Shown in pieces: positions 44,380-63,666 of a DNA stretch of 64,000 nt. Source of the DNA: Haladaptatus salinisoli (GTDB lineage Archaea > Halobacteriota > Halobacteria > Halobacteriales > Haladaptataceae); NCBI RefSeq assembly GCF_020614375.1, contig NZ_CP085329.1:62001-126000 (forward strand), in the 5' to 3' direction. Below the pieces are notes generated by a model. It saw only the letters and a program-made list of their open reading frames with translations, was not told the DNA's origin and made no database searches. Position 1 is the stretch's first letter, and every line of letters begins with the position of its first letter. Both the position numbers and the translations under genes were made by a program.

Positions 44380-44711
44380 CGTTGGCGTGTTTCCGTCGTA
44401 GTGGCGTCGTCCGGCCCCGAACCGGCGGCGTTCGAGTAGCGGCTCGAACGCTACCGCGCCGTTCGCGGGCGGTCGTTGCCCAGCACTCTCGGTACCTATC
44501 TCGGATTCGGACGGTATAGGTGGGGGTGAGGAATAGTCAACCCATTGAAGTGGGGACGTGCGCCGGAAAGGGCTACGTCGTCCGTTCGCGGTCGCACCGA
44601 CTCGAGAGCCGCCGTTTCGACGACCCGCGCAAGATTTTTGTCGGAACTACCGGTATCTATACAACGGTATCGAGGGCCGCACACCGGTTCTCGCGAGCAC
44701 CAGTACGTCAG

Positions 44712-46220
44712 ATGAAAGGTATCACCGTCGTCACGAAGGAAGAATCGTTTCTGGAGACCGCAGCGGCTGCACCGCCAGGGGCTCGGGTACCGTTCGAAGT
44801 TCGCATCACCGTCTCGGATCCGTTCGAGGCGTACCGCCGCGCCCGCGACACCGACGCCGACGGGTTCTATCTCGAAACGACCGGCGGGCAGTCCGGGTGG
44901 GGCTACTTCGGCGTCGAACCGGTCGAGCGCCTGCAAGTGAACGCAAACGCGACACCCTTGGACGCCGACAGCTCGAGCATCGAAGCCATCGACTCGTTGT
45001 TGAACCGCGAACGGCTGGTTCGCGGGGAGTGCGACGTCCCGTATCCGTGCGGCGCGTTCGGGTGGTTGTCCTACGACATCGCGCGGGAACTGGAGGACTT
45101 GCCGGCGACGACGGTCGGCGACGGCCTCCCCCGACTCCAACTCGGGGTGTTCGACCGCGTCGCCGCTTGGGAGGAGCCGCGCGACGACGACGTCCGAATT
45201 CGTGTGACCGCGTGTCCCGTCGTCGAAGGGTCGCCGGAGGCGGCCTACGAGGAAGGGCGAGAGAAAGCGACGGCGCTCGCCCGGGCGGCGCTGCGCGGGG
45301 AGGGACGGATTCGGTCGCCCCCGACTCCGACCCGGCAGGCGACGTTCGAGAGCGAGTGCGGTCGAGCGGCGTTCGCCGACCGCGTTCGAACCATCAAACG
45401 GTACATTCGAGACGGGGATACGTTTCAGACGAACGTCTCGCACAGGTTGGTCGCACCCGCGGCGGTCGGTCCGGTCGAGACCTTCGACGCGGTGCGGCGG
45501 GTGAACCCCGCGCCCTATTCCGCGCTGCTGGAGTTTCCGGGCGTCGACCTCGTGAGCGCCAGTCCCGAACTCCTGCTCGACGTCGACGGCGACCGCGTCG
45601 TCACCGAACCCATCGCCGGGACGCGGCCGCGCGGGGGGACTCCGGAGGAGGACGCGGAACTCGAAGCCGACCTGCTGGCCGACGAGAAGGAGCGCGCCGA
45701 GCACGCGATGCTGGTCGACCTCGAACGAAACGACCTCGGAAAGGTAAGCGAGTACGGGAGCGTCGACGTCGCCGAGTACCGCCGCGTCGACCGCTACTCC
45801 GAGGTGATGCACCTCGTCTCGCTGGTGGAAGGGCGGTCGCGCGACGGCGTGGGCGTTGCGGACGCCGTCGCGGCGGTGTTCCCCGGCGGCACCATCACGG
45901 GCGCGCCGAAGCCTCGAACCATGGAGATAATCGACGAGGTCGAGACGACCCGTCGCGGACCCTACACCGGGAGCATCGGCGTTTTCGGGTTCGACGACCG
46001 GGCGACCCTGAACATCACCATCCGGACGCTGGTTCACCACCGCGACGAGTACCGGTTACGCGTCGGAAGCGGCGTGGTTCACGATTCGGTGCCCGAGCGC
46101 GAGTACGAGGAGACGCTGGACAAGGCGCGGGCGCTCGTGACGGCCGTCGACGAGGCGCTGGGCGAGCAGGGGTCGTTCGCCGTCGATACCGGCACCGACG
46201 CGATGGAGGGGGTCAGATGA
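44712..46220 (+). CDS. Chorismate-utilising synthase component I (PabB or TrpE type)
   Basis: 502 residues. The C-terminal chorismate-binding domain is clear: [80 protein letters not shown] and [12 protein letters not shown]. In E. coli PabB a Lys nucleophile sits in PIKGT; here it is Ala302 in PIAGT, as in anthranilate synthase TrpE. The genomic setting (folD, FolC-FolP, Fhs) favours a folate role, making 4-amino-4-deoxychorismate, while the residue favours anthranilate. Its stop overlaps the next gene's ATG (ATGA). I start at MKGITVVT, where homology begins. Confidence 0.85.
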
Positions 46221-46789
46221 TACTCATCGTCGACAACTACGACTCGTTCGCCTACAACCTCGTCCAGTACATCGGCGAGTTCGACGACGTCGCGGTGCGG
46301 CGCAACGACGAGATAGACGTGGCGGGTATTCGGGACCTGAATCCCGACGGTATCGTCGTCTCCCCCGGGCCGGGGACGCCGGTCGACGCCGGCGTCTCCA
46401 TCGACGTCTTCGCCGAAACGGAGTATCCCGCTCTCGGCGTCTGCCTGGGCCATCAAGCGCTGTGTGCGGCGCACGGGGCAACGGTCGGGCACGCCCCCGA
46501 GGTGGTTCACGGCAAGCAGTCCGAAATCCGTCACGACGGAACCGGCCTGTACGAGGGCGTCGCAAACCCGATCGAGGTCGGGCGCTACCACTCGCTGGCC
46601 GTCGACGAGGACGACCTGCCGGCCGAACTGACCGAGACGGCGTACACCAACGACGAACGGGGCGTCGTGATGGGGGTCCGGCACGTCGAGCGCCCCCATG
46701 TCGGCGTGCAGTTCCACCCCGAGAGCATCCTCACCGACGCCGGAAAACGAATCGTGAAGAACTTCTGCACGTCCGTCGCCGCCGTCTGA
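46217..46789 (+). CDS. pabA: Chorismate synthase glutamine amidotransferase (PabA/TrpG)
   Basis: 190 residues, a class I glutamine amidotransferase. [13 protein letters not shown] at the start, SPGPGTP, the nucleophile Cys in GVCLGHQAL, and the His-Glu pair in VQFHPES complete the triad. It supplies ammonia to the synthase encoded upstream, with which it overlaps by four bases. TrpG and PabA cannot be told apart by sequence, and one protein can serve both enzymes; the symbol rests on the folate neighbourhood. A PabC-type lyase gene, often next in such operons, is missing. Confidence 0.88.
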
Positions 46790-47431: not shown

Positions 47432-48955
47432 ATGACAGGAGGGACAGGTGCCGTCGGTCGCTCGCCCGTCGTACGCGTCGCGACCGCGGCAGCAACGGAC
47501 GACTGCGAGCGAGTCCTCGCCGCGGCGCGGGGCGCGGCCGACCGGGTACCGGTGATTCGGACGGGGCCGACCGGTATCGCGGAGAGCGACCCGCTCGTCA
47601 TGGCGAGCAGCGCGGGACGGACGGCGTTTTTCTCGAATCCGAGACCGCCGGTAATCGAGGAACTGGTCGACGCGCTGGAAGCCGGGTCGGTTCCGACGGA
47701 CGGCGCGGACACCGTCGCGGACCACGACCCGGATATCGCGTCGCTACCGGTTCCGGACGCCGGACCGCTCTCGGTCGGTCGGCGGTCGGTGCTCGGCCCG
47801 TGCGGGTGGGTCGACCCGTCGAACCCGACGGAACGACCCCTCGTCGCGACCGAACGGACGGCCGAAGCGGTAGCCGACGTGGGACTCCTCGGACGCGGGC
47901 GCGGCGACGCCGCCGCGGACGCGCCGGTGACCGACGTATGGGAGACGGCTCGGAGGACGGACGGGGACCCGGTCGTCGTCGCCAACGCGAACGAGGCCAG
48001 CGATACGCCGCGGGCCGACGCGACGTTGCTCGCCGGTGCACCCATGGCGGTTCTCGACGGGATGGCGGCCGTCGCGGAGTACGTCGGCGCGGAAGACGCC
48101 GTTCTCTACCTGAACGAGACGGACGTCGAACTGCATCGAATCCTCCGCGAGGCGGTCGACGCGGCCGCCGCGGAGCTACCGATCGTTCCGCAGTTGGTGA
48201 CCGGCCCCGACGAGTACCGCGCCGGCGAGCCGACCGCCGCGCTCGAAGCGCTGGAAGGCGCGGACCGCATCGAGCCGCGTGTGCAGCCGCCTTCGCCCGC
48301 CGAACACGGACTCTACGGTCGCCCGACGGTGATTCACACGCCTCGGACGTTCGCCCAGGTTCGGCGCGCCCTCCGGGAACCGGACGCGTTCGACGCGGAC
48401 GCCGCCGACCCCGGAACGAGACTGGTCACCGTCGGCGGCGACGTGGCGAGTCCCGCGACCGTCGAACTGGCGCCGGGTGACAGTCTCGAAACGACGCTGG
48501 ACGCCGTCGAGATGACGGGCTCGTTCAAGATGGCCTGCGTCGGCGGTGTCCTCGGCGGCGTCACCCGTACCCTCGACGTCGCGCCGACCGCGCGGTCCCT
48601 GCACGCCGCCGGTCTCGGCACCGACGGCGTCGTCGAACTGCTGGACGAAAAACGGTGCGCGGTCGCGACCGCCGGCGAGCGCGCGAAGTTCGCCGCGACG
48701 GAGAACAGCGGTCGCTGCGTTCCCGGCCGCGAGGGAACGAAACAGCTCGTCGAACTCCTGCGCGACGTCTACCGAGGGTCGCTCGAAACCGACGAGATTC
48801 GGGAACTGGGTCGAGTGATGCGCCGGTCGAGTAACTGTCAAATCGGGGCGCACGCGCCCCGACCCGTGACGACCGCCATCGACGAGTTCGAACCGGAGTT
48901 TCGCGCGCACACCGACGGCCGCTGTCGCGCCGGCGCGTGTACGGGGGACCGATGA
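47432..48955 (+). CDS. NuoF/FdhB-like formate dehydrogenase subunit with degenerate cofactor sites
   Basis: 507 residues. It is co-linear with NuoF/formate dehydrogenase beta subunits: a SLBB-like central part and a C-terminal Fe-S helical domain. The FMN-loop region reads GLLGRGRGDAAADAP where typical proteins have GLRGRGGAGFPTG, and NANEASDTP replaces NADEGEPGT. The cluster motif SCGxCxPCRxG is SGRCVPGREG here, with Cys to Ser426 and Cys to Gly432; Cys429 and Cys469 remain. So FMN and 4Fe-4S binding are doubtful. It overlaps fdhA by four bases and is surely its partner. It may be a structural subunit or use another acceptor. Confidence 0.8.
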   Translation: MTGGTGAVGRSPVVRVATAAATDDCERVLAAARGAADRVPVIRTGPTGIAESDPLVMASSAGRTAFFSNPRPPVIEELVDALEAGSVPTDGADTVADHDPDIASLPVPDAGPLSVGRRSVLGPCGWVDPSNPTERPLVATERTAEAVADVGLLGRGRGDAAADAPVTDVWETARRTDGDPVVVANANEASDTPRADATLLAGAPMAVLDGMAAVAEYVGAEDAVLYLNETDVELHRILREAVDAAAAELPIVPQLVTGPDEYRAGEPTAALEALEGADRIEPRVQPPSPAEHGLYGRPTVIHTPRTFAQVRRALREPDAFDADAADPGTRLVTVGGDVASPATVELAPGDSLETTLDAVEMTGSFKMACVGGVLGGVTRTLDVAPTARSLHAAGLGTDGVVELLDEKRCAVATAGERAKFAATENSGRCVPGREGTKQLVELLRDVYRGSLETDEIRELGRVMRRSSNCQIGAHAPRPVTTAIDEFEPEFRAHTDGRCRAGACTGDR

Positions 48956-51900
48956 GTTCCGAGGATCCGCTTCCGCGCGTTCCCGACCTCGCCGACCCGC
49001 GACCGAGCACGCCGGTCACGGCCGAGTTCGAGACGGGCACCGCGACCGACCCCGCCGTCGGCACGGACGGCGACGAGCCAACGACGGTCACGGTCAACGG
49101 CGAACCGGTGACCGTTCCGCCGGGGTCGACCGTCATCGACGCGATGAACCTCGTCGGCGACGAGAACGTGACGGTCGCGTCGGGTCCGGACGGCGTCGAC
49201 GACGCCGACGTCCCGGCGCTCTGCCACTACGACCGCGAGGGCGATTGTAGCGACCGAATCGGCCCCCGGAGCGAGTGTCGAACCTGCATGGTCGAGACGG
49301 ACTCCCACGGCATCGTCCCGGCCTGTTCGTTCCCGGCCGAGGACGGCCTCGGCGTCCGGACGGACTCGCCGGACGCCGAGGAGTGCCGCAGCGTCAACCT
49401 CGACCTCGTGCTCTCGAACCACAACCTCCGCTGTACGACCTGCAACGGCAACGGTCGCTGCGAACTGCAGGACGCCGCCATCAGCGAGGGCGTCGACCAC
49501 CCGCGCTACGGCGTCTTCGACGAGCGCGACCGGTACGAGCCGATCGACGACTCCTCGTCGTTCATCCAGATCGACCGCAACAAGTGCATCCTCTGCAGTC
49601 GGTGCGTCGACGCGTGCAACGACGTTCAGGTGGAAGGCGTCCTCCGAATCGAAGGGCACGGCGAGGACACCCGAATCGGCTTCCAGTCCGACGCCGAGAC
49701 GATGCACGACTCCGACTGCGTCTCCTGCGGCCACTGCGCGACGGTCTGTCCGACCGGCGCGCTGACCGAGAAGGGTATCGACGGGGTCGGGACGATTCCG
49801 CTCCCGGGATTCACCCAGCGGAACTCCGTCGGGGAGGTCATCGAGCACGAAGACGCCGAGACGATAGACGACGCGACCGCGCCGAACCGGTCGTTCGGGG
49901 CGAACGAACCCGCACGAAGCGACCGCGACGAGAGAACCGGTCTCGCCCGGTTCATGGACCGGGTGAAGCGCCGGGGCGGCGAACTCGGTCGGAAAGCGAT
50001 GCTGGCGGGCGAACACGCGGCCGAGGGTATCGCGGCGAACGCGCTCCCCGAGCGCTACCTGTTCGACATCGCCAGCACGGTCGGCGACTACCGACTGGGC
50101 TCGATAGAGAGAGCGGAGACGACGTGCGGATTCTGCGCCGTCGGATGTCGCTTCGAGATGTGGGGGAAGGACGGCCGGACGCTCGGGGTCGTTCCGGTCG
50201 ACGACCCGGACGACGCCCCGGCGAACGACTTCTCGACCTGCGTGAAGGGGAAGTTCGGCCACGAGTTCGCGAACAGCGGAAAGCGGCTCACGAAACCGCT
50301 CGTTCGCAACGAGGCGGGGGAACTGGAACCGACGAGTTGGAGCGAGGCGCTGGACCGCGCGGCGGAACGCCTCGCCGAAATTCAGGAGAGCCACGGCGTC
50401 GACGCGGTCGGTTGCCTCGCGTCCTCGAAGGGCACGAACGAGGAGGCGTACCTCGTCCAGAAGTTCGCCCGACAGGTGCTCGGGACCAAGAACATCGACA
50501 ACTGCGCCCGCCTCTGTCACTCCTCGACGGTGGCGGCGCTCCAACAGACGGTGGGCTACGGCGCGATGACGAACCGCATCAACGAGGACATCGGTCGGGC
50601 CGACGCCTACCTCATCAGCGGGTCGAACACGACCGAGTCCCATCCCGTGCTGGCGACGAGAATCAAGCAGAACGTCCGCGACGGAGCCGACCTCGTCGTG
50701 TTCGACCCCCGAAAGGTCGACATCGCCGAGCACGCGGACCAGTACACGCGGACGAAGCCGGGCTACGACGTCGTCTGGCTCAACGGGATGATTCGGTACC
50801 TCGTCGAGAACGACCTCCACGACGAGGAGTTCATCGAGCGCAACACCACCGGCTTCGAGGAGGTCGAGCGGAAGGTTCGGGCGTTCACCCCGGAGCGAGT
50901 CGAGGAGTTGGCGGGCGTCCCGCCGGCGGAACTGGCCGCGGCCGCCGAGACGCTCGCGGCGGCCGAGACCGTCGTGTTCGGGTGGGCGATGGGGATGACC
51001 CAGTCCAGTCACGGCACCGAGAACCTCATCGCGATGGCCGACCTCGCGCTGACGCTCGGACAGGTCGGCAAGGAGGGGGCCGGTCTCTCCCCGTTCCGCG
51101 GTCAGAACAACGTGCAGGGCGGCGGCGGAGACATGGGAACGCTGCCCGGGAGCCTTCCCGGGTATCAGGACCCGGCGGACGACGAGGTCGGCGAGAAGTT
51201 CGCCGAAGCGTGGGGCGAGCGGCCGCCGGAGGAGCCCGGCCTCACGGTGCCGGAGATGTTCGACGAGATACACGAGGGGAACCTCCGCGGGATGTACGTC
51301 GTCGGCGAGAACCCAGCGCTCTCCGAACCCGACATCGAACACGCGGCGGAAGGGCTCGAGGAAATCGACTTCCTCGTCGTGCAGGACATCTTCCTGACGG
51401 AGACGGCCGAACACGCCGACGTCGTCCTTCCCGCGGCGACGTCGCCGGAGAAACACGGGACGTTCACCAACACCGAGCGCCGCATCCAGCGGGTCCGACC
51501 GAGCGCGGAGCCGCCGGGCGAGGCCCGACAGGATTGGGAGATAACCCGGGCGCTGGCCAATCGCCTCGGCTACGGCTGGGACTACGACCACCCCCGCGAG
51601 ATAATGGACGAGATACGATCGCTCGCGCCCATCTACGGCGGCGTCACCTACGACCGCTTGGAGGAGGGCGAGAAGCACGGTTTGCAGTGGCCGTGTTGGG
51701 ACGAGGACCACCCGGGCACGCCGTACCTCTACGACTACGAGGACGGGAACTTCAACTTCGAGGACGGGAAAGCGCGGTTCGTCCCCGCCGACGGCGGTCA
51801 CCCCGGAGAGCTCCCGGACGAGGAGTACCCGTACACGCTGACGAGCGGTCGCGTGCTCTACCACTGGCACACCGGCCAAATCACTCGGCGCGTGGAGGGG

Positions 51901-52242
51901 CTGATGAGCCACGTCGGCGAGAGCTTCGTCGAGATCAATCCCCAGACGGCGACCCGGCTCGGCGTCTCCGACGGCGAGTACGTCCGCGTCGAATCTCGCC
52001 GCGGGTCCATCGTCGTCAAGGCCGAGGTCACCGAGCGCGTCGGGCCGAACACGCTGTTCATCCCGATGCACTTCGCCGCGGGGGCGGTGAACAAACTCAC
52101 GCAGAGTACCTTCGACCCGCAGGCCGGCATCCCAGAGTACAAGGTGTCCAGCGTCCGCGTCGAGGCGCTCGGCCCGGAGACGGACGAGGCGGTCCTCCGC
52201 ACCCCGGACGTCGGCGGGAGCGGTCTCACCGGCGACGACTGA
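48952..52242 (+). CDS. fdhA: Formate dehydrogenase catalytic subunit (molybdopterin, multi Fe-S)
   Basis: 1096 residues. The N-terminal 2Fe-2S domain has Cys91, 109, 112 and 125, with several extra residues between the first two. Next are a HNLRCTTCNGNGRCEL segment of the NuoG type, two 4Fe-4S sets (CILCSRCVDAC and CVSCGHCATVCP), and the molybdopterin part with TCGFCAVGCRFEM binding another cluster. Cys522 in NCARLCHS is the expected Mo/W ligand, so this is a Cys, not selenocysteine, enzyme. The C-terminal MGD-binding domain includes LTSGRVLYHWHTG. It oxidises formate to CO2 in the cytoplasm; with fhs and folD it would end a folate-linked C1 route. Confidence 0.9.
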   Translation: MSSEDPLPRVPDLADPRPSTPVTAEFETGTATDPAVGTDGDEPTTVTVNGEPVTVPPGSTVIDAMNLVGDENVTVASGPDGVDDADVPALCHYDREGDCSDRIGPRSECRTCMVETDSHGIVPACSFPAEDGLGVRTDSPDAEECRSVNLDLVLSNHNLRCTTCNGNGRCELQDAAISEGVDHPRYGVFDERDRYEPIDDSSSFIQIDRNKCILCSRCVDACNDVQVEGVLRIEGHGEDTRIGFQSDAETMHDSDCVSCGHCATVCPTGALTEKGIDGVGTIPLPGFTQRNSVGEVIEHEDAETIDDATAPNRSFGANEPARSDRDERTGLARFMDRVKRRGGELGRKAMLAGEHAAEGIAANALPERYLFDIASTVGDYRLGSIERAETTCGFCAVGCRFEMWGKDGRTLGVVPVDDPDDAPANDFSTCVKGKFGHEFANSGKRLTKPLVRNEAGELEPTSWSEALDRAAERLAEIQESHGVDAVGCLASSKGTNEEAYLVQKFARQVLGTKNIDNCARLCHSSTVAALQQTVGYGAMTNRINEDIGRADAYLISGSNTTESHPVLATRIKQNVRDGADLVVFDPRKVDIAEHADQYTRTKPGYDVVWLNGMIRYLVENDLHDEEFIERNTTGFEEVERKVRAFTPERVEELAGVPPAELAAAAETLAAAETVVFGWAMGMTQSSHGTENLIAMADLALTLGQVGKEGAGLSPFRGQNNVQGGGGDMGTLPGSLPGYQDPADDEVGEKFAEAWGERPPEEPGLTVPEMFDEIHEGNLRGMYVVGENPALSEPDIEHAAEGLEEIDFLVVQDIFLTETAEHADVVLPAATSPEKHGTFTNTERRIQRVRPSAEPPGEARQDWEITRALANRLGYGWDYDHPREIMDEIRSLAPIYGGVTYDRLEEGEKHGLQWPCWDEDHPGTPYLYDYEDGNFNFEDGKARFVPADGGHPGELPDEEYPYTLTSGRVLYHWHTGQITRRVEGLMSHVGESFVEINPQTATRLGVSDGEYVRVESRRGSIVVKAEVTERVGPNTLFIPMHFAAGAVNKLTQSTFDPQAGIPEYKVSSVRVEALGPETDEAVLRTPDVGGSGLTGDD

Positions 52243-52338: not shown

Positions 52339-54066
52339 TCAGAACAGGCCGGTGATATCGCCGTCCGCGTCGATGTCCATGTCGGCGGCGGCGGGGTCAC
52401 TCGGGAGGCCCGGCAGCGTCAACACGTCGCCCGTGAGCGCGACGAGGAAACCGGCACCGGCCGACGGATAAATCTCGCGCACCTCGAGTTCCCAGCCCTC
52501 CGGAGCGCCCTTCTTCGTCGCGTCGTCGCTCAGCGAGTGGAACGTTTTGGAGAGGCAGACCGGGAAGTCGCCGAACCCGAGTTCCTCCATCCGCTCGATG
52601 TCGTCCTCGGCCCCGCCGGTGTACTTCACGCCGTCGGCACCGTACACCTCGGTCGCGACCGTGCGAATCTTCTCCTTGATGGAGTCTTCATCCTCGTACA
52701 GGGGCGCGAACTCGTCGCCGTCGGTCGCTTCGGTTTCCTCGATCACGTGCTCCGCGAGTTCGACGCCGCCCTCGCTGCCGTCGGCGAAGACGGTCGACTC
52801 GGCGGCGTTCACGCCGAGGTCGTCCCGACAGTGGTCGAGGATAACCCGAACCTCCTCGTCGGTGTCGTCGGGGAACCTGTTGACGGCGACGACGACCGGA
52901 ACGCCGAACTTCTGGAGGTTCGAGACGTGCTTGTCGAGGTTCTCGAAGCCACCCTCGACGGCGTCGACGCCGGCCGCGTCGATTTCGTCGTAGTCGACCG
53001 GCCACATGTCCAGCCCGTGGTATTTGAGCGCGCGAACGGAGGCGACGAGCACGACCGCGTTCGGGGTCATATCGCCCAGTCGGCAGACGATGTCCATGAA
53101 CTTCTCCGCCCCGAGGTCGGAGCCGAAACCGGCCTCGGTGACGAGGTAGTCGCCCATCCCGAACGCGGCCTTGTCCGCGATGAGCGAGTTCGTCCCGTGG
53201 GCGATGTTCGCGAACGGTCCGCCGTGGACGAACGCCGGCGTTCCTTCGATGGTCTGAACGATGTTGGGTTTCATCGCGTCCTGGAGCAGCATCGTGACGG
53301 CTCCGGTCGCGTCGATGTCGTCGACCGTAATCGGCTCGCCGTCCTCGTCGTAGGCGACGATGATGCGAGCGACCCGCTCTTTGAGGTCGGCGAGGTCGGT
53401 GGCCAAGCAGAGGACGGCCATCAGCTCTGACGCCGCGGTGAGGAGGAATCCGTCCTCGCGCGGCGTCCCGCCGGTTTCCCCGCCGAGACCGATCACCGTC
53501 TCCCGAAGCACGCGGTCGTTCATGTCGAGCGCGCGTTTCCAGGAGACGTCGTTGACGTTGATGTTCAACTCGTCCCCCTGCGATATTTTTGCGTCGAGCA
53601 TCGCCGCGATGAGGTTGTGCGCCGACGTGAGCGCGTGCAGGTCGCCGGTGAAGTGGAGGTTGATGTCCTCCATCGGCAGCACCTGCGAGTGGCCGCCGCC
53701 GGCCGCGCCGCCCTTGACGCCGAACACCGGCCCGAGCGACGGTTCGCGGATGGCGATCATCGCGTCCTCGCCGAGGTGATTCAGCGTCTGACCCAGTCCG
53801 ACCGTCGTGACGGTCTTCCCTTCGCCCTTCGGGGTCGGCGTCATCCCCGTTACGAGCACGAGGTTCCGGTCCTTGCTCTCCGCCCGTTCGCGGAGGCGGT
53901 CGATGGCGTGGTGTTTGACCTTCGCCGTGTACTCGCCGAAGTACTGCAGGTCGTCGAGGCCCAGTCCCCACGGTTCGACCAGCTCCCAGATGGGCTCCAT
54001 CTCGGTCGACTGCGCTATCCTGTAGTCCGTCGGAATCGGCTCGTGGCTCTCGTCGGATACTGGCAT
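52339..54066 (-). CDS. fhs: Formate-tetrahydrofolate ligase
   Basis: 575 residues. Fhs links formate and THF to 10-formyl-THF with ATP, or runs in reverse to make ATP. The phosphate-binding motif is PTPKGEGKT (77-85), followed by VGLGQTL; EPSLGPVFGVKGGAAGGGHSQV, FTGDLHALTSAHNL, GPFANIAHGTNS and VTEAGFGSDLGAEKF are typical blocks. Length is near the usual 557. It is convergent with fdhA. The presence of formate dehydrogenase nearby suggests the release or use of formate as a shared intermediate. Confidence 0.96.
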   Translation of the reverse strand: MPVSDESHEPIPTDYRIAQSTEMEPIWELVEPWGLGLDDLQYFGEYTAKVKHHAIDRLRERAESKDRNLVLVTGMTPTPKGEGKTVTTVGLGQTLNHLGEDAMIAIREPSLGPVFGVKGGAAGGGHSQVLPMEDINLHFTGDLHALTSAHNLIAAMLDAKISQGDELNINVNDVSWKRALDMNDRVLRETVIGLGGETGGTPREDGFLLTAASELMAVLCLATDLADLKERVARIIVAYDEDGEPITVDDIDATGAVTMLLQDAMKPNIVQTIEGTPAFVHGGPFANIAHGTNSLIADKAAFGMGDYLVTEAGFGSDLGAEKFMDIVCRLGDMTPNAVVLVASVRALKYHGLDMWPVDYDEIDAAGVDAVEGGFENLDKHVSNLQKFGVPVVVAVNRFPDDTDEEVRVILDHCRDDLGVNAAESTVFADGSEGGVELAEHVIEETEATDGDEFAPLYEDEDSIKEKIRTVATEVYGADGVKYTGGAEDDIERMEELGFGDFPVCLSKTFHSLSDDATKKGAPEGWELEVREIYPSAGAGFLVALTGDVLTLPGLPSDPAAADMDIDADGDITGLF

Positions 54067-54384: not shown

Positions 54385-56775
54385 ATGGAGTATCACGAAG
54401 CGGCCGACTTTCTGACGTCCCTGCAGCGGCGCCGTCCCGAGTTCGGGACGGAGACGACGGCCCGGATGCTCTCTCACTTCGGACATCCGCAGGCCGACGT
54501 CGACTTCGTGCAGGTCGCCGGTTCCAACGGCAAAGGAAGCACGACGTGTCTGCTGGAGAGCGTGCTACGGACCGCCGGCCTGGAGGTCGGGGTGTTTACG
54601 TCCCCGTGTTTGAACGACTTTCGCGAACAGATTCGCGTCGGCGGTCGACCCGTCCCGAAAGAGCGGGTCGCGGAGTACGTCGAGCGCATCCGTCCCTGCC
54701 TCGAGCGACTTCGGGCGGACGACGACATGCCGACGCACTTCGAGGTCCTCACCGCGCTCGCCGTCCACCACTTCGGCGTCGAGGGCGTCGACGTCGGCAT
54801 TCTGGAGGTCGGTATCGGGGGGCGCTACGACGCGACCAGCGCGGTCGACCCGGTCGCGAGTGCGGTCACGAGCGTGAGCCTGGAACACACCGACCTGCTC
54901 GGAGACACGGTGGAAGAAATCGCGCGCGACAAGGCGCAGGTCGCTCCGACCGGCAGACCGCTCGTCACGGGGGCGGACGGGGCGGCGTTGGAGGCCATCC
55001 GGTCGGAGACGGACGCCATCACGGTCGGCGCGGCGGACGCGGACGTCATCGCGGTCGAGAACGGGATGCGGTCCCACGTCGAGAGTAGCGTCTCCGTTAC
55101 GGCGTCCGAGTGGACGCTGGAAACCAACCTTTCGCTGCTCGGCCAGTACCAAGCGACGAACGCAGGCGTCGCCGCTGTCCTCGCCCGACAGGTCGCCGGG
55201 GTCGACGCCTCCACGATGGCCGACGGTCTGCGGAAGGCGACCTGGCCGGGCCGGTTCGAAATCGTCTCCACCGAACCGATGGTCGTGCTCGACGGTTCCC
55301 ACAACCCGGGTGCCGCCGCGAAACTGGGCGACCTGCTCGGACGCTACGACTACGACGACCTGCACGTCGTCTTCGCCGCGATGGCGGACAAGGATTACGA
55401 GGGGATGGTCGCGGAACTTCCGGCCGTCGATACCGCGTTCGTCACGCGCCCCGACGTCGAGCGCGCGGAGGACGTCGACGCGCTGGCGGACGCCTTCGGC
55501 GGGCGGGCGGAGAGGGTCCATCGGGTCGAGTCCGTGCCGGAAGCCGCGGAGCGAGCGCTCGCCGCGGCGGACGAAACCGACTTCGTGCTCGTCACCGGCT
55601 CGCTGTACGCCGTCGCGGAAGCGCGGGACCGGTGGACGCGGCTGGTCGTCCCGAAAGGACCCCGGCGAACGAACGAAGATACCGTGCGTTCGCGGCCGGG
55701 GGTCCCCGAGGCGACCGCCGACGATATCGACCATCGAGTTCTCGCGACTTCCTTACGGCGCGACCAGGCCGAACGCGTCGGCCGACGTTTCGAGGCCGTC
55801 GGCGGCACGTGCGTGCGCTCCGACGCCGGCGCGCCCGGAAAGCTCGTCGAGACGGTCCTCTCGGGGACGGTTACGGAGTTCCGCGAACTGGCCGACGCCA
55901 TCCAAACCGACGGCCTCGGATTGCGACACCTCGCGCGGCAGTTCGGGACCGCCCTCGACGGACCGTCGCCGGACGCCCCCTTCGACGCGGAGCGGACGGC
56001 CGTGATGGGGATTCTGAACGTCACGCCGGACAGTTTCCACGACGGCGGCGAGTACGACCGACTCGACGCGGCGGTCGAGCGCGCCGAACGGATGGTCGCC
56101 GCCGGTGCGGACATCGTGGACGTCGGCGGGGAGAGCACGCGGCCGGGTGCCGAGCCGGTTCCCGTCGGCGAGGAGGTCGACCGCGTCGTCCCCGTTATCG
56201 AATCGATATCGTCGCTCGGCGTCCCCGTCTCGGTCGACACGCGGAAGGCCGCCGTCGCGGAGGCCGCGCTCGACGCCGGGGCCGACATCGTCAACGACGT
56301 CTCCGGACTTTCCGACCCGGAGATGCGGTTCGTCGTCGCAGACCACGACGCGTCGCTAGTCCTCATGCACAGCCTGTCGGCCCCCGTCGACCCCGACCGG
56401 ACCGGGCCGTACGACGACGTGGTCGAGGACGTCCTCCGCGACCTCTCCGAACGAATCCTGCTCGCGGAGCGGGCGGGCGTCGACCGAGAGCGAATCGTCG
56501 TCGACCCGGGGTGCGGATTCGGCAAGGACGCGGCCGAGTCGTTCGAACTGGTCGACCGCCTCTCGGAGTTCCGGGCGCTCGGCTGTCCCGTGATGGTCGG
56601 ACACTCCCGGAAGTCCATGTTCGAGCGAGTCGGCTGCCGGGGCGGGGAGCGACTCCCCCCGACGCTAGCGGTGACGGCTCTGGCGGCCGAACGAGGGGCC
56701 GACGTGGTCCGGGTGCACGACGTCGCGGAGAACGCGGCGGTGGTTCGGACGGTCGCCGCAGCGAACGACTCGTAA
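54385..56775 (+). CDS. folCP: Fused dihydrofolate/folylpolyglutamate synthase - dihydropteroate synthase
   Basis: 796 residues in two enzymes. Residues 1-430 are FolC: the ATP site AGSNGKGST (45-53), TSPCLNDFREQIRV, HFEVLTALAVHHF, SLEHTDLLGDT and LDGSHNPGA. A linker region of about 100 residues follows. From about 540 there is FolP: VMGILNVTPDSFHDGGEY, GADIVDVGGESTRPGAEPV, VSVDTRKAAVAEAAL, IVVDPGCGFGKD and MVGHSRKSMFE. The fusion is known from haloarchaea such as Haloferax volcanii. It joins pABA to the pterin and then adds glutamate, so it makes the folate used by the neighbouring C1 genes. Confidence 0.95.
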   Translation: MEYHEAADFLTSLQRRRPEFGTETTARMLSHFGHPQADVDFVQVAGSNGKGSTTCLLESVLRTAGLEVGVFTSPCLNDFREQIRVGGRPVPKERVAEYVERIRPCLERLRADDDMPTHFEVLTALAVHHFGVEGVDVGILEVGIGGRYDATSAVDPVASAVTSVSLEHTDLLGDTVEEIARDKAQVAPTGRPLVTGADGAALEAIRSETDAITVGAADADVIAVENGMRSHVESSVSVTASEWTLETNLSLLGQYQATNAGVAAVLARQVAGVDASTMADGLRKATWPGRFEIVSTEPMVVLDGSHNPGAAAKLGDLLGRYDYDDLHVVFAAMADKDYEGMVAELPAVDTAFVTRPDVERAEDVDALADAFGGRAERVHRVESVPEAAERALAAADETDFVLVTGSLYAVAEARDRWTRLVVPKGPRRTNEDTVRSRPGVPEATADDIDHRVLATSLRRDQAERVGRRFEAVGGTCVRSDAGAPGKLVETVLSGTVTEFRELADAIQTDGLGLRHLARQFGTALDGPSPDAPFDAERTAVMGILNVTPDSFHDGGEYDRLDAAVERAERMVAAGADIVDVGGESTRPGAEPVPVGEEVDRVVPVIESISSLGVPVSVDTRKAAVAEAALDAGADIVNDVSGLSDPEMRFVVADHDASLVLMHSLSAPVDPDRTGPYDDVVEDVLRDLSERILLAERAGVDRERIVVDPGCGFGKDAAESFELVDRLSEFRALGCPVMVGHSRKSMFERVGCRGGERLPPTLAVTALAAERGADVVRVHDVAENAAVVRTVAAANDS

Positions 56776-56974: not shown

Positions 56975-58354
56975 ATGCCAGAGAGCAGCGAACATCCAAA
57001 TCACCCTGGTGTCGACCAGTCGGATCGCGTACTACCGAGGAACCTGCGTCAGACTGGCGACCCCGGCATCGAGATGTTGGTCTCCACGCGCGTTCGTAAA
57101 TCGCCTTTCTTCGACAAATCCTTCAACGAGGAGGGCGCTTGGCGGTGTACGGTGTACAACCGAATCTACCACCCTCGCGGCCTCGTCGAACCGGAGGACG
57201 GCGGCGCGATGGCCGAGTACGAGGCGCTAACCGAGAAGGTGACGCTTTGGGACGTCGCCGTCGAGCGCCAGATTCGCGTGAAGGGACCGGACGCGGAGGC
57301 GCTCACCAACTACGTCATCACCCGGGACGCGACCGAAATCGAACCGATGCGCGGGAAGTACGCCATCCTCTGTAACGAGGACGGCGGAATCCTGAACGAC
57401 CCGGTCCTGTTGCGGGTCGCGGAGGACGAGTTCTGGTTCTCCCTCTCCGACTCCACGCTCATGCAGTGGTTGCAGGGCGTCAACGTCGGGAAGGACTTCG
57501 ACGTCGAGATAGACGAAATCGACGTCGCACCGATGCAGATACAGGGCCCGCTGTCCGAGGACGTGATGATAGACGTCGTCGGCGAGGAGGTCAGCGAAAT
57601 CCCGTACTACGGCCTCATGGGCGCCGAAATCAACGGCTGTCCGGTGCTGGTGAGCCAGACGGGCTTCTCCGGCGAGAAGGGGTTCGAAATCTACGTGAAA
57701 GACGCGATGGAAAACGCCGAGCGCGTCTGGGACCCGGTCATGGAGACCGTCAAGGCTCACGGCGGGATGCAGATCGCGCCCGGACACCACCGTCGAATCG
57801 CGGCGGGCATCCTCTCGTGGGGCCAGGACATGGACCACGAAACGTCCCCGTTCCAGGTCAACCTCGGCTATCAGGTGCCGGACGACAAGGACGCCGACTA
57901 CATCGGCAAGGAGGCACTCGAACGCCAGAAGGAGTTGATAGAGGACGGCGAGTACCCGTTCAACCACAAGCTGGTCGGCCTGAAGATGGCCGGCGAGCCG
58001 ATTCGGGATTACGCCCCCGACTTCTGGATAATCTCCGACCCCGAGTCGGGCGAGGAGTGCGGTTACATGACGTCGCCGTGGTGGAACCCCGACCTGGAGA
58101 CGAACATCGGGCTCGGTTTCGTACCGGCGGACAAACTCCAGTCTGAGGCCGACGTCCCGCTCGACGACGAAATCTACGAGGCCGACCTCGACATCGAGTT
58201 CGAGGTGCACCTGCCGGACGAGTACGCCGAGGAGGAGGGCGAACCGGTGTACGCCACGGTGGCGAGGGTTCCGTTCAAGGAGTCGGTCAACCCGAGCGCC
58301 CGCGAACAGGCCAAGCTGAACGCCAGGAAAGAAGCGGAAGCCAACGACGACTGA
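56975..58354 (+). CDS. GcvT-family THF-dependent methyltransferase/demethylase (DmdA/LigM-like)
   Basis: 459 residues. The aminomethyltransferase fold is evident, but the N-terminus is of the demethylase type: STRVRKSPFFDKS, CTVYNRIYHPRG, then VTLWDVAVERQIRVKGPDAEALTNYV. These stretches resemble DMSP demethylase DmdA and the O-demethylase LigM more than glycine-cleavage GcvT. Further marks are IQGPLSEDVM, TGFSGEKGFEIYV, the RIAAGILSWGQDMD region and the C-terminal barrel ending in VPFKES. It would move a methyl group from an S-, O- or N-methylated substrate to THF. No glycine-cleavage genes are adjacent. The substrate is unknown. Confidence 0.8.
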   Translation: MPESSEHPNHPGVDQSDRVLPRNLRQTGDPGIEMLVSTRVRKSPFFDKSFNEEGAWRCTVYNRIYHPRGLVEPEDGGAMAEYEALTEKVTLWDVAVERQIRVKGPDAEALTNYVITRDATEIEPMRGKYAILCNEDGGILNDPVLLRVAEDEFWFSLSDSTLMQWLQGVNVGKDFDVEIDEIDVAPMQIQGPLSEDVMIDVVGEEVSEIPYYGLMGAEINGCPVLVSQTGFSGEKGFEIYVKDAMENAERVWDPVMETVKAHGGMQIAPGHHRRIAAGILSWGQDMDHETSPFQVNLGYQVPDDKDADYIGKEALERQKELIEDGEYPFNHKLVGLKMAGEPIRDYAPDFWIISDPESGEECGYMTSPWWNPDLETNIGLGFVPADKLQSEADVPLDDEIYEADLDIEFEVHLPDEYAEEEGEPVYATVARVPFKESVNPSAREQAKLNARKEAEANDD

Positions 58355-58531: not shown

Positions 58532-59779
58532 TCAGTCGTAGAGCGGGTACTCGTCCGCGAGTTCGTCGACCCGGGCGCTGACGTCGGCGACGACGGCCTC
58601 GTCGTGGGGGGCGTCGACGACTTCGTAGATGAGGTCGGCGACTTCGCGGCACGCCGCCTCATCGAAGCCGCGGGTCGTGAGCGCGGGCGTACCGGCGCGA
58701 ATCCCCGAGGGATTGAACGGCGAACGCGTCTCGCCCGGAACAGTGTTCGCGTTCAAGACGATGCCGGCGTTCTCCAGCGCCGATTCGACCTCCTTTCCCG
58801 TCGTGTCGGGATGGGACGGCCTGAGGTCCACCAGCACGAGGTGGTTGTCCGTGCCGCCGGAGACGAGGTCGAGGCCGCGTTCCCGAAGACGGCGGCCGAG
58901 CGCCTTCGCGTTGGCGACGGTCCGCTCCGCGTACTCGTCGAACGCGGGGTCGAGGGCCTCGCCGAACCCGACCGCTTTCCCCGCGATGTTGTGCATCGCC
59001 GGCCCGCCCTGCGCACCGGGGAACACCGCGCTGTCGACGGCGTCGGCGTGCTCTTCGCCGCACATGATGATACCGCCGCGACCGGCGCGGATGGTCTTGT
59101 GCGTCGACCCGGTGACGAAGTCCGCCACGCCCACGGGCGACTCGTGAACGCCCGCGGCGACCAGCCCGGTGACGTGCGCGATGTCGGCCACGTGGTAGGC
59201 GTCGACGGCGTCCGCGGCCGCCTGAACGCGCTCGAAGTCGACCTCCCGGGGATACGCGGAGTACCCGGAGACGATGACGTCCGGGTCGAATCTCTCGGCC
59301 GTCTCGCGCAACCCCTCGTAGTCGACGTAGCCCGTTTCGGGATCGATTTCGTACTGTTCGACGTCGTAGACCTGCCCTGCGAAGTTCGCAGGGTGACCGT
59401 GCGAGAGGTGGCCGCCGTGGGTCAAGTCCAGGGACAGAATCTTGTCGCCCGGTTCCAGAATCGCCAGATACACCCCCATGTTCGCCTGCGAACCCGAGTG
59501 GGGTTGGACGTTGACGTGGTCGGCTCCCCACAGTTCCTCGGCGCGGTCGATGGCCACCCGTTCGATTTCGTCGGCGTACTCACAGCCGCCGTAGTAGCGC
59601 TCGCCGGGGTATCCTTCGGCGTAGTTGTTGGTCAGCTCCGAACTCTGGGCCTCCATGACCGCTTCCGAGACGTGGTTCTCGCTCGCGATCATCGCCAGCG
59701 TGCCCTCCTGTCGGGCGCGTTCGGCTTCCAGGAACTCGGCGACGGTCGCGTCCGTTTCGCGGACGGTATCGTACGTCAT
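58532..59779 (-). CDS. glyA: Serine hydroxymethyltransferase
   Basis: 415 residues. PLP-dependent exchange of a C1 unit between serine/glycine and THF. MIASENHVSEAVMEAQSSELTNNYAEGYPGERYYGG is the hallmark N-terminal region, and the PLP lysine is Lys228 in TGSTHKTIRAGRGG. DLTHGGHLSHG and RAGTPALTTRGF are also family marks. I start at MTYDTVRE, because upstream residues are promoter-like and not conserved. It is convergent to the demethylase gene and lies 172 bases downstream of metF on the same strand. Confidence 0.96.
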   Translation of the reverse strand: MTYDTVRETDATVAEFLEAERARQEGTLAMIASENHVSEAVMEAQSSELTNNYAEGYPGERYYGGCEYADEIERVAIDRAEELWGADHVNVQPHSGSQANMGVYLAILEPGDKILSLDLTHGGHLSHGHPANFAGQVYDVEQYEIDPETGYVDYEGLRETAERFDPDVIVSGYSAYPREVDFERVQAAADAVDAYHVADIAHVTGLVAAGVHESPVGVADFVTGSTHKTIRAGRGGIIMCGEEHADAVDSAVFPGAQGGPAMHNIAGKAVGFGEALDPAFDEYAERTVANAKALGRRLRERGLDLVSGGTDNHLVLVDLRPSHPDTTGKEVESALENAGIVLNANTVPGETRSPFNPSGIRAGTPALTTRGFDEAACREVADLIYEVVDAPHDEAVVADVSARVDELADEYPLYD

Positions 59780-59951
59780 GAGTAACGTACCGGGCTCGGA
59801 ACGGAATAATTTATCCTTCGACGGAAGATGACGGACGACCGACCATCTGTGTTCCACGGTACCACAGTATGACAGGCCTACCGCTGTTCGCAATCGCAGG
59901 TGAGGCGGTCTACCGCGACCGTCGCTCGTCCACCGCTCGTCGTGCCTGCGA

Positions 59952-60812
59952 CTACTCCCGGATTCGCGCGCGCCGCCACGATTCGGTGTCGGCCGTCTGG
60001 TTGAAGGTGTAGACGTGGATTCCGCGAATTCCGTACGCCTCGTCGTCGACGTACGGCGCGAGTCCGTCGACGAGTTCGTTCGGCTTGTACTTCCCCCGCG
60101 AGGTGACGAGTTGGCGGACGAACCCGAGGATGCCGGTCGTCTTGCTGAGGAACTTGATCGAGTCGCCGACGCCGACCTTCTGGGAGATGTCGATCAGACG
60201 CTGATACTTCATCACGCCCGGAATGCCGATTTCGACGGGGAGGTCGACGTTCCGGTCGCGGATCGTCTCGATCCACTCGATGACGGTCTCCGGGTCGTAA
60301 CAGAGCTGGGTGACGATGTAGGTCGCGTACGGTTCTTTCTCGGCCATCGAATCCGTCAGCGTCTTCTCGTCGAGGAAGGCGTGCCCCTCCGGATAGCCGG
60401 TGATACCGACCTCGTCGAAGGAGTACTCCGTCTCGTCGAGCGTCGAGAGCAGGTCGTGGGCCGACTCGAACTCCCCGGCGGGTTCGTCGCGGTCGCCGCC
60501 CGGCACGAAGATATCCGTGACGCCGGCGACGGTGAGCCGTCGCGCGATGTCTTCGAGGTGTTCCCGGTCGGTGACGTAGCGCGCGGCGATGTGGGGAACG
60601 ACGTCGAACCCCCGCTCGGCCGCCTGTTCCGCGCGCTCGACCGTCCGCTCGATGCCGAGTTGGGGCGACGTGGTGATGGCGACGCTCGCGTCGTCGGGCA
60701 GGTGGGTTACTTCGTCGTCGAAACTGTCGAACGGCATCAGTTCGTACCGTGCGCCCGTCAGGAGTTCCTCGACGCCCTCCCGTTCCGTGTCGGTACGCAG
60801 TCCGAGGGACAT
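59952..60812 (-). CDS. metF: Methylenetetrahydrofolate reductase (MetF-like)
   Basis: 286 residues forming one FAD-type TIM barrel. VAITTSPQLGIERTVERAEQAAERGFDVVPHIAARYV matches the MetF start, then VPGGDRDEPAGEF, GITGYPEGHAF and YIVTQLCYDPETVIEWI. It would link 5,10-methylene-THF and 5-methyl-THF, which suits a demethylase that leaves methyl-THF. The sequence is divergent from bacterial MetF; whether it uses NADH, ferredoxin or F420 is not visible. Divergent from the dimethylglycine dehydrogenase-like gene across a 280-base promoter region. Confidence 0.85.
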   Translation of the reverse strand: MSLGLRTDTEREGVEELLTGARYELMPFDSFDDEVTHLPDDASVAITTSPQLGIERTVERAEQAAERGFDVVPHIAARYVTDREHLEDIARRLTVAGVTDIFVPGGDRDEPAGEFESAHDLLSTLDETEYSFDEVGITGYPEGHAFLDEKTLTDSMAEKEPYATYIVTQLCYDPETVIEWIETIRDRNVDLPVEIGIPGVMKYQRLIDISQKVGVGDSIKFLSKTTGILGFVRQLVTSRGKYKPNELVDGLAPYVDDEAYGIRGIHVYTFNQTADTESWRRARIRE

Positions 60813-61092: not shown

Positions 61093-63666
61093 ATGGATAC
61101 GACCGACAGCTTGCCGACCCGGGCCGACACCGTCATCGTCGGTGCCGGCATCGTCGGCTGCAACATCGCGTATCACCTGACAGCGCTCGGCCGAGACGAC
61201 GTCGTGGTGGTCGACCAGGGGCCGATGCCGACCACCGGTGGGTCCTCGTCTCACGCACCCGGCATCATGTTCCAAACCGCCGACTCGAAGATACTCACCA
61301 AGTTCGCGAACTACAGCCGGGAGCTGTACTCCTCGCTCGAGGGGAAAGACGGCGAGCGGGCCTACAACGAGGTCGGCGGCATCGAGGTGGCCCGAAGCGA
61401 GGAGCGCATGGACTTCCTCCAACGTCGCGTCGAGTGGGGGAAAGCGTGGGGCATCGAAGCGCCCCGACTCCTCTCGCCCGAGGAGGTGACCGAGCACCTC
61501 CCGCTCGTGAGCGAGGACGTGATTCTCGGGGGCTACTACTCGCCGACCGACGGACAGGTCTCCGGCGTCGTCGCCTGCGACGCGCTCGCTCGGGAGGCGA
61601 TGGAGCGCGGTGCCGAGTTCGTCCCGCACACCCGCACCGAGGACGTCGAGGTCGAGAACGACTCGGTGCGGGCGGTCGTCACGGAGAACGGCACCATCGA
61701 GTGCGACGAGGTCGTCATCGCGACGAACATCTGGGCCCGACAACTCGGCGAGAAACTCGGGGTTCACCTGCCGGTCGCTCCCGTCGAGCACCAGTACACG
61801 ATAACCGAACCGCTCGACGAAATGGCGGACGGCGCGGTCGACGTCGGCGACCACCCGCTGTTCGAGAACTACCGCAACGTCTCCGGCGAGAAGGCGAAGC
61901 GCCTGCTCGTCGGACCCGACCGGCCCATCCTGCGCGACCAGGACAACGCGATGTACTACCGGACGCACGGTGACGCCTACGGCATCGGCTCGTACAACCA
62001 CGAGCCGATCGTTCCGAACCCGCAGGAGCTGGGCGATAACGACCCGGACGGCGAGCAGGGGTCGGTTCACGAGTTCACCGACTACCACATGAACAACGCG
62101 ACGCACCCGGACCGACCGGACAAACCCCCGCGACAGGCAAGCGACGAGTTCATCCCCGCCACGGCCGGCAAGGACCTCGAATACAAGTACAACGGGATGT
62201 TCGCCGAATCGCCGAACGGCCTGCCCGTGATGGGTCCGGTCGAGGAGTACGACGGCCTTTGGACCGCGGCGGCCATCTGGGTCACGCACGCCGGCGGTGC
62301 CGGGAAAGCCCTCGCGGAGTGGATGGAGAACGGCGTCCCGCGGCTCCCCGACGGTCCCATCGACCTCGCGCACGCCGACGTCAACCGGTTCGACGCCCAC
62401 GAGGGAAGCTGGGATTTCACCCGCGACATCGGCGGGGAGGAGTACCGCATCGTCTACAACGTCGTGCACCCGAAGTGGGTGTGGACCGATAAACAGCGGG
62501 ACATCCGCCGGACGCCGATGTACCACACGCACGAGGAGTACGGCGCCGAGTTGTGGGCCGAGGCCGGCTGGGAGGAGCCGCAGTGGTTCGAGTCGAACGC
62601 CGACCTGCTGGCCGAGTACGGCGACCGAATCCCCGACCGCGACGGGTGGGAGGGCAAGTACTGGTCGCCCATCGAGGGGGCGGAGGCGTTGCACGTCCGC
62701 AACGAGGTCGGCCTCCACGACATGACCTCGTTCAACAAGATGGAGGTCGTCGGGAGCGACGCCGGTCGGTTCGTCCAGCACCTCTGTACGAACGACGTGG
62801 ACATCGACGTCGGCGACGTCAAGTACACGCTGATGTGCAACGAGGGCGGCGGCGTCCGCGCGGACATCACCGTCACGCGCACCGACGAGAATCGCTACCT
62901 CCTGCTCACGACCGGCCGCGAGGTCGGAAACAACCACGTCGCGTGGGTCCGCGACCGCGCTCCGGAGAACGTCGTCGTCAACGACGTCACCTCCAGTTTG
63001 GCCGCGATGGTCTGTACCGGGCCGAACGCCCGCAAAGTGCTCTCGAAGGTCGCCACCGCCGACCTATCGGACGACGCCTTCCCGTTCTTCACGAGCCAGC
63101 GGTTCTTCGTGAAGAACGTGCCCGTCACCGCGCTGCGCGTCTCCTACGCCGGCGAACTCGGCTGGGAGCTGTACACGCCCTCCGAGTACGGCGAGACGCT
63201 CTGGAATCACGTTCTGGCGGCCGGCGAGGAGTACGACATCCGACCGTACGGAAACGGCGCGCTGGACGCGCTGCGCATCGAGAAGGGGTTCCGGCTTTGG
63301 GGCGAGGACCTCCACACCGAGCACAACCCGTCCGAGGCCGGCCTCGACTGGGCGGTCGACCTCGACACCGACTTCATCGGCAAGGAGGCCGTCGCCGCGG
63401 CCGCCGAAGGCGACAACATCGACCACAGAGTCGCCTGCCTGACCCTGGACGACGAGGACGCGGTGGTGCTGGCGGACCGGCCGGTGCTCGACGGCGACGA
63501 GACCATCGGGTACGTCCACAGCGCGGAGTACGGCTACACCGTCGGGGCCTGCGTCGCGTACACGTACCTGCCCCCTGAGTACGCCGAACCCGGAACGGAG
63601 GTCGAGATACTCTACGAAGGTGACCGGTACGGCGCGACCGTCCGGGAAGAACCGCTGGTGTCCTAA
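61093..63666 (+). CDS. Dimethylglycine/sarcosine dehydrogenase-like flavoprotein with GcvT domain
   Basis: 857 residues, close to the length of dimethylglycine dehydrogenases. The FAD fold is VIVGAGIVGCNIAYHL (15-30), and His54 in GGSSSHAPG matches the position of the His that binds FAD covalently in that family. The oxidase domain runs to about 430. From about 500 there is a GcvT-like folate-binding domain (LHVRNEVGLHDMTSFNKMEVVG, AYTYLPPEYAEPG at the end). The enzyme takes a methyl group from an N-methylated amine acid as formaldehyde equivalent onto THF to give methylene-THF. A second copy follows at 63883. Confidence 0.9.
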   Translation: MDTTDSLPTRADTVIVGAGIVGCNIAYHLTALGRDDVVVVDQGPMPTTGGSSSHAPGIMFQTADSKILTKFANYSRELYSSLEGKDGERAYNEVGGIEVARSEERMDFLQRRVEWGKAWGIEAPRLLSPEEVTEHLPLVSEDVILGGYYSPTDGQVSGVVACDALAREAMERGAEFVPHTRTEDVEVENDSVRAVVTENGTIECDEVVIATNIWARQLGEKLGVHLPVAPVEHQYTITEPLDEMADGAVDVGDHPLFENYRNVSGEKAKRLLVGPDRPILRDQDNAMYYRTHGDAYGIGSYNHEPIVPNPQELGDNDPDGEQGSVHEFTDYHMNNATHPDRPDKPPRQASDEFIPATAGKDLEYKYNGMFAESPNGLPVMGPVEEYDGLWTAAAIWVTHAGGAGKALAEWMENGVPRLPDGPIDLAHADVNRFDAHEGSWDFTRDIGGEEYRIVYNVVHPKWVWTDKQRDIRRTPMYHTHEEYGAELWAEAGWEEPQWFESNADLLAEYGDRIPDRDGWEGKYWSPIEGAEALHVRNEVGLHDMTSFNKMEVVGSDAGRFVQHLCTNDVDIDVGDVKYTLMCNEGGGVRADITVTRTDENRYLLLTTGREVGNNHVAWVRDRAPENVVVNDVTSSLAAMVCTGPNARKVLSKVATADLSDDAFPFFTSQRFFVKNVPVTALRVSYAGELGWELYTPSEYGETLWNHVLAAGEEYDIRPYGNGALDALRIEKGFRLWGEDLHTEHNPSEAGLDWAVDLDTDFIGKEAVAAAAEGDNIDHRVACLTLDDEDAVVLADRPVLDGDETIGYVHSAEYGYTVGACVAYTYLPPEYAEPGTEVEILYEGDRYGATVREEPLVS

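Follow-up and report, generated by a model that had tools for sequence, protein, structure and literature searches.

The open reading frame at positions 56975-58354 of a 64,000-nucleotide stretch of the Haladaptatus salinisoli genome (the window) encodes a DmdA-like protein that is probably an O2-independent glycine betaine:tetrahydrofolate (THF) demethylase, yielding dimethylglycine and 5-methyl-THF. Its gene neighbourhood and its distribution over 294 haloarchaeal genomes make glycine betaine the probable substrate. It also seems fairly likely that the protein represents an undescribed family of folate-dependent onium demethylases, which has lost three charged residues near-universal in the GcvT superfamily, mainly carries out the first step of betaine catabolism in roughly one in four haloarchaeal species and is interchangeable with an unrelated, O2-dependent Rieske oxygenase. 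For this picture we computed the family placement, fold, gene content, linkage, co-occurrence and alternation with the Rieske gene. Brines contain glycine betaine as a major osmolyte, and a candidate for its first demethylation would fill a long-open gap in haloarchaeal betaine use. Haloarchaeal genomes with a dimethylglycine oxidase and BCCT transporters were noted in 2011 as indicating possible betaine use, and the passage concerned names no enzyme for the first demethylation (PMC3102087). The literature searched, coverage of which was incomplete, describes no glycine betaine demethylase that depends on THF.

The ATG-initiated frame called in the initial annotation, with its motifs SPFFDKS, CTVYNRIYHP and VTLWDVAVERQ, was recovered at exactly the same position. 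It is a real gene beyond chance, as judged from its Pfam GCV_T (PF01571) score of 147.6 bits (cut-off 25.6), which places it in that superfamily, and from orthologues (77-91% identical) in 69 of the 294 sampled haloarchaeal genomes. The C-terminal barrel domain lies just under the Pfam threshold (25.1 vs 25.9 bits). Among the NCBIfam models the best is that for DmdA (NF009133), with 242 bits against an equivalog cut-off of 410, compared with 680 bits for a plasmid DmdA; two GcvT models give 164 and 136 bits, both below their cut-offs of 300 and 236. The best PDB sequence match is the Pelagibacter ubique DmdA 3tfh (155 bits, about 30% identity), ahead of the GcvT 1woo (145 bits), and relative to DmdA the protein carries an N-terminal extension of about 35 residues. 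In an AlphaFold model of medium confidence (mean pLDDT 73.6, with the first 39 residues below 50), the closest fold is again 3tfh (TM-score by target 0.92), followed by 1woo (0.88) and, at about 0.60, LigM. The initial annotation was thus right in drawing the protein nearer to DmdA than to GcvT. The kinship that it also proposed with the aromatic O-demethylases fell away, given scores of only 34 and 51 bits with the LigM and DesA models (cut-offs 580 and 800), the poor fold match and the remote placement of a LigM-family protein in the tree, well away from the clade; with LigM and DesA the protein shares the GCV_T superfamily and the proposed THF-dependent methyl transfer. By its sequence the protein is best termed DmdA-like: it scores under the DmdA cut-off and lacks the SKQGG motif, and its identity as a true DmdA is not established.

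To place the family, we inferred a tree of 62 sequences with a mixture model in IQ-TREE. The haloarchaeal DmdA-like copies form one clade (support 100/100) with two subclades, namely the orthologues (H1) and a paralogue about 70% identical to them (H2). The sister of this clade is a bacterial group (96/87) that unites true DmdA, two unusual DmdA-like proteins (DX) and a large group BL, with the haloarchaeal proteins lying outside it in the unconstrained tree. The joint clade of the haloarchaeal and the DmdA/DX/BL proteins has support of 100/99 and leaves out GcvT, the dimethylglycine oxidase domains, sarcosine oxidase, Tdm and LigM; owing to several long outgroup branches, the deep order outside this superclade is uncertain. 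A constrained grouping of the haloarchaeal proteins with GcvT was rejected (AU p 0.00099), and one with DmdA alone was borderline (AU p 0.051). The tree with DmdA, LigM and GcvT that the initial annotation had proposed as a check therefore denies the protein a position within canonical GcvT, and the haloarchaeal proteins are best seen as a separate clade allied to DmdA and two bacterial DmdA-like groups. The source genome (5.0 Mb, with the window on a 558-kb contig, C3) has five GCV_T loci, one of which, on contig C1, is a canonical gcvT adjoining gcvH and gcvPA; tblastn confirmed that the window itself has neither gcvH nor gcvP, as first remarked from its reading frames. This intact gcvT-gcvH-gcvP set and the AU result together rule out a canonical GcvT identity. 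In the same tree, a Rhizobium DUF1989-GCV_T fusion (L043 4804-7173) clusters with the TMAO demethylase Tdm.

The catalytic and folate-binding features common to the superfamily are kept: the protein retains D142, the catalytic Asp conserved in GcvT and DmdA, along with N141, R98-Q99, W154, S156, D159 and the folate residues E238 and Y240. With DmdA it shares the YN, ERQ, NDP, W-x-S and D159 motifs, the catalytic Asp and the proposed product, 5-methyl-THF. Three charged residues of DmdA (R194, E241 and E259 in 3tfh) are replaced by Gln228, Ala276 and Gln294 in every haloarchaeal copy examined (n=58). The Arg and Glu at the positions of 228 and 276 are invariant in all other aligned sequences, including LigM, GcvT, dimethylglycine oxidase and Tdm, and the Glu at that of 294 is nearly so outside the haloarchaeal copies. 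In place of the DmdA SKQGG motif, the haloarchaeal copies have SGEKG/SGEAG-type sequences (SGEKG in the protein studied here). The aromatic residue at 231 is Phe in the haloarchaeal copies and Trp (P. ubique) or Tyr (roseobacter) in DmdA (W/Y197 in 3tfh); because of the roseobacter Tyr, Trp at this substrate-contact position is a weak marker of DMSP specificity. At position 282, H1 has Trp, H2 has Leu, and DmdA and BL have Tyr. Residue comparisons indicate that the substrate side of the haloarchaeal proteins has diverged, and by themselves they do not say toward which substrate. As the segment 267-284 of the model, with A276 and W282, has pLDDT below 50, we draw no claim on the pocket or on an aromatic betaine cage from it.

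The genes around the DmdA-like gene (Table 1) make up a putative glycine betaine catabolic module, with linked dimethylglycine-oxidase-like genes, a betaine-type transporter, glyA and genes of C1 oxidation. Just beyond the window edge lie the second fusion, a threonine/serine ammonia-lyase (an ilvA-type dehydratase) and a BCCT transporter, for which the glycine betaine BCCT model scores highest (517 bits, short of its equivalog cut-off). In most of 40 orthologue loci the gene is found with a metF-like gene and at least one of the fusion, BCCT, ilvA, glyA, fhs, folD and pabB genes, as in the annotated clusters of Haloarcula sp. JP-L23 and Halomicrococcus gelatinilyticus; Haloarcula hispanica ATCC 33960 also carries the DmdA-like gene (NC_015944.1, 226335-227708). 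The names of haloarchaeal carriers were drawn from plasmid records.

Table 1. The DmdA-like gene and its neighbours (window coordinates unless stated)
Feature	Coordinates	Strand	Evidence and remarks
FolD, methylene-THF dehydrogenase/cyclohydrolase	43486..44379	-	NF010764 546 bits, cut-off 477
PabB-like chorismate-binding enzyme (p-aminobenzoate supply)	44520..46220	+	Pfam Chorismate_bind 290 bits
PabA-like glutamine amidotransferase, C-terminal part of ORF 44558-46789	46217..46789	+	TIGR00566 199 bits, cut-off 121
NuoF-like NADH-binding subunit	47432..48955	+	Pfam Complex1_51K and NADH_4Fe-4S; probable partner of formate dehydrogenase, from adjacency
Formate dehydrogenase alpha subunit	48937..52242	+	TIGR01591 807 bits, cut-off 666
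Formate-THF ligase Fhs	52339..54066	-	NF010030 806 bits, cut-off 652
FolC-FolP fusion (folylpolyglutamate synthase and dihydropteroate synthase)	54385..56775	+	TIGR01499 321 bits, TIGR01496 302 bits, both above cut-off
DmdA-like THF-dependent demethylase, proposed glycine betaine:THF methyltransferase	56975..58354	+	459 aa; ATG start
Serine hydroxymethyltransferase GlyA (glycine + CH2-THF to serine)	58532..59893	-	NF000586 575 bits, cut-off 335; longest ORF, true start may be internal
MetF-like, divergent methylene-THF reductase	59952..60812	-	Pfam MTHFR 49 bits, cut-off 24
FAD (DAO)-GCV_T fusion copy 1, dimethylglycine/sarcosine oxidase-like	61093..63666	+	Profile matches; named by homology only
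FAD-GCV_T fusion copy 2, just outside the window	L006 276-2936 = contig C3 125775-128435		Named by homology only

Across the sampled genomes the DmdA-like gene is tied to the MetF-like gene, which is present in 72 of the 294, namely all 69 carriers of the former and 3 others (Fisher p 2.9e-64). This p value is overstated, as species are not independent, yet close linkage recurs in 21 of the 24 genera that the carriers span: the two genes lie within 12 kb of each other in 59 genomes and within 500 bp in 34. A MetF-like gene in every carrier fits an enzyme that moves a methyl group to THF, as a handler of 5-methyl-THF would then be needed, rather than a T protein making CH2-THF, and the product is thus very likely 5-methyl-THF. 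Together with the tree and the fold, this co-occurrence bears out the initial suggestion of an archaeal THF-dependent demethylase outside canonical GcvT, less its LigM half; for the substrate, which had been left open, the context points to glycine betaine rather than to DMSP or aromatics.

A second line of evidence comes from genomes that have the proposed later steps and lack the DmdA-like gene. A dimethylglycine-oxidase-like fusion (E 1e-150) is present in 94 genomes, 64 with the DmdA-like gene and 30 without it. Of these, 86 were searched for a Rieske oxygenase within 15 kb of the fusion, which was found in 28 of the 30 genomes without the DmdA-like gene vs 10 of the 56 with it (p 4.2e-12). 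By genus, 17 have the DmdA-like gene only, 8 the Rieske gene only, 5 both and none neither; the chance of an empty last class given the margins is 2.2e-4. At one locus (L208) the Rieske gene sits beside glyA, BCCT, ilvA and the fusion, in the slot held elsewhere by the DmdA-like/metF-like pair, and the MetF-like gene tracks the DmdA-like and not the Rieske gene (64/64 vs 1/30). For both Rieske proteins tested the best NCBIfam model is GbcA (144 and 135 bits, cut-off 670), and for one of them the best PDB match is a carnitine monooxygenase. GbcA, the Rieske glycine betaine monooxygenase, is unrelated to the DmdA-like protein and catalyses the step proposed for it, betaine to dimethylglycine, with a GbcA-like gene occupying the same haloarchaeal cluster slot; GbcA requires O2 and a reductase, and releases formaldehyde, not 5-methyl-THF. 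In two of the ten DmdA-like carriers that also have a Rieske gene near the fusion, the only cases checked, the Rieske gene adjoins the DmdA-like gene. At loci L051 and L052 the Rieske and DmdA-like/MetF-like genes stand side by side, and the two enzymes are perhaps used at different oxygen levels.

No BHMT-type (PF02574) homologue was found in 61 DmdA-like carriers, and the source genome (G000) yielded no MttB-family protein and none of the known first-step enzymes GbcA, BHMT and MtgB; its sole Rieske alpha subunit, encoded on contig C5 at a distance from the cluster, aligns over a longer span than the GbcA-like proteins do. The MtgB/MttB-family corrinoid glycine betaine methyltransferase likewise demethylates glycine betaine without O2, and differs in requiring a corrinoid protein. 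MttB-family proteins above the cut-off occur in 7 sampled haloarchaeal genomes, all of them DmdA-like carriers, and all five of the 69 carriers that lack a dimethylglycine oxidase (E 1e-150) have one. One haloarchaeal MttB-family protein is equally close to 2qne and to the glycine betaine methyltransferase structure 9yce (401 bits); the MttB-family loci are L040 847-2301, L196-L199 and L210.

We infer the substrate, the product, the direction of the MetF-like reaction and the order of steps as follows. Glycine betaine would enter through the BCCT transporter, and the DmdA-like enzyme would pass a methyl group from its trimethylammonium to N5 of THF by SN2 transfer, with no need of O2, cobalamin or homocysteine, to give dimethylglycine and 5-methyl-THF. 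The two FAD-GCV_T fusions would oxidise dimethylglycine to sarcosine and then to glycine, loading CH2-THF, and the MetF-like enzyme would oxidise 5-methyl-THF back to 5,10-CH2-THF. GlyA would combine glycine and CH2-THF into serine, the adjacent serine/threonine dehydratase would convert this to pyruvate, and leftover C1 units would be burned by FolD, Fhs and formate dehydrogenase. Of the three demethylations, the first alone would act on an onium methyl group; the other two would be oxidative, matching the two fusions. In DmdA, the methyl group is moved from the DMSP sulfonium to THF in a redox-neutral reaction that forms 5-methyl-THF (PMC5395565). If the proposal is true, one protein closes the betaine pathway to pyruvate and CO2 and drops the need for O2 at its first step, and DmdA-type chemistry gains a second substrate class. 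Databases name the family glycine cleavage T protein or aminomethyltransferase, and many genomes would then carry a misannotation of its function.

The H2 paralogue (L085-L098) has Leu for Trp at 282 and Phe for Pro at 143, and clustering of its neighbours found an HTH_10 regulator as the only recurrent one and none of the genes of the H1 cluster; thus, the haloarchaeal clade may hold more than one substrate. Group BL (Roseobacter, SAR11, Marinobacterium, Halomonas), an uncharacterised group, has the closest non-haloarchaeal sequences (34-41%) and belongs to the same superclade; however, it branches as a clade of its own, retains the Arg and both Glu that the haloarchaeal copies have lost and has mostly other neighbours, with metF, folD, purU or BCCT near a few members. 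Many of the bacterial DmdA-like relatives (L109-L188, L099-L102) lie in operons of the order Lrp, DmdA-like, OsmC, enoyl-CoA hydratase and acyl-CoA synthetase. The acyl-CoA synthetase and hydratase neighbours of the nearest bacterial relatives suggest DMSP or another acid as their substrate, and the substrate has therefore probably changed within the DmdA superclade. A partial precedent comes from SAR11, where the DmdA-related SAR11_1265 adjoins metF and the aminomethyltransferase SAR11_1303 has a proposed role in glycine betaine metabolism (Sun et al. 2011, PMC3160333); these proteins are bacterial, and SAR11 also has BHMT for glycine betaine. Several SAR11 members of the bacterial DmdA-like family adjoin isocitrate lyase. 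A Marivivens DmdA-like protein (L103 11998-17157) that falls short of the curated DmdA threshold is encoded in a dmdB-dmdC-dmdD-like operon, and the NCBIfam DmdA model may thus miss real DMSP demethylases.

Some of these observations weigh against glycine betaine as the substrate: the five carriers with an MttB-family protein in place of the oxidase, the ten with a Rieske gene as well, the H2 paralogue, the operons of the bacterial relatives and the match of the Rieske proteins to carnitine monooxygenase besides GbcA. Another quaternary ammonium compound (carnitine, choline, proline betaine or tetramethylammonium) could feed the same folate pathway, as BCCT carriers and Rieske relatives handle several such compounds, a carnitine monooxygenase being the best PDB match of one Rieske protein, and the residue at 282 and the neighbours of H2, together with the varied neighbours of the bacterial relatives, would agree with it. 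We consider this rather unlikely, given that 64 of the 69 carriers have dimethylglycine-oxidase-like genes, which would be needed only if dimethylglycine or sarcosine were made. Were the protein a divergent, archaeal DmdA, DMSP would be taken up by the BCCT transporter and converted to methylmercaptopropionate with transfer of the methyl group to THF. BCCT carriers are able to move DMSP, among characterised families DmdA is the nearest in sequence, tree and fold, the AU test leaves a grouping with true DmdA alone at the borderline, and the Marivivens case shows a sub-cut-off protein in a DMSP-type operon. Such a role is nonetheless unlikely in view of the low DmdA score and missing SKQGG motif and of a neighbourhood of dimethylglycine oxidases, glyA and ilvA with no DmdB, DmdC or DmdD among the neighbours examined; in 20 carriers the top hits to DmdD are generic crotonases (26-39% identity), and the alternation with the GbcA-like Rieske gene would be left unexplained.

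The GCV_T domain and the adjacent oxidases would also suit a second aminomethyltransferase, working with the FAD fusions or on dimethylglycine or sarcosine to make CH2-THF. This is improbable, because the fusions have a GCV_T domain of their own, a CH2-THF product would not require the MetF-like gene seen in every carrier, the tree rejects the grouping with GcvT and the genome keeps a complete canonical T/H/P system at another locus. A LigM/DesA-type aromatic O-demethylase would belong to the same superfamily, and a Sphingobium LigM-family gene adjoins the folate gene purU; the profile scores, the fold, the distance in the tree and a neighbourhood in which no aromatic catabolism genes were seen make this highly improbable, and the kinship was dropped.

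The cluster on the 558-kb contig was probably acquired by horizontal transfer, since the DmdA-like, MetF-like and dimethylglycine-oxidase genes are missing from the sampled congeneric genome (G124) and from six others of the family. A Cdc6/Orc1-type gene at window positions 31163-32371 would fit an origin of replication belonging to a secondary replicon. At another locus, a 355-aa protein with no Pfam match (L039 19721-20788) is encoded next to the MetF-like gene. Proteins related to it (35-49% identical) are encoded in many of the haloarchaeal clusters, where an aspartoacylase-like gene and one of the creatininase family often accompany them.
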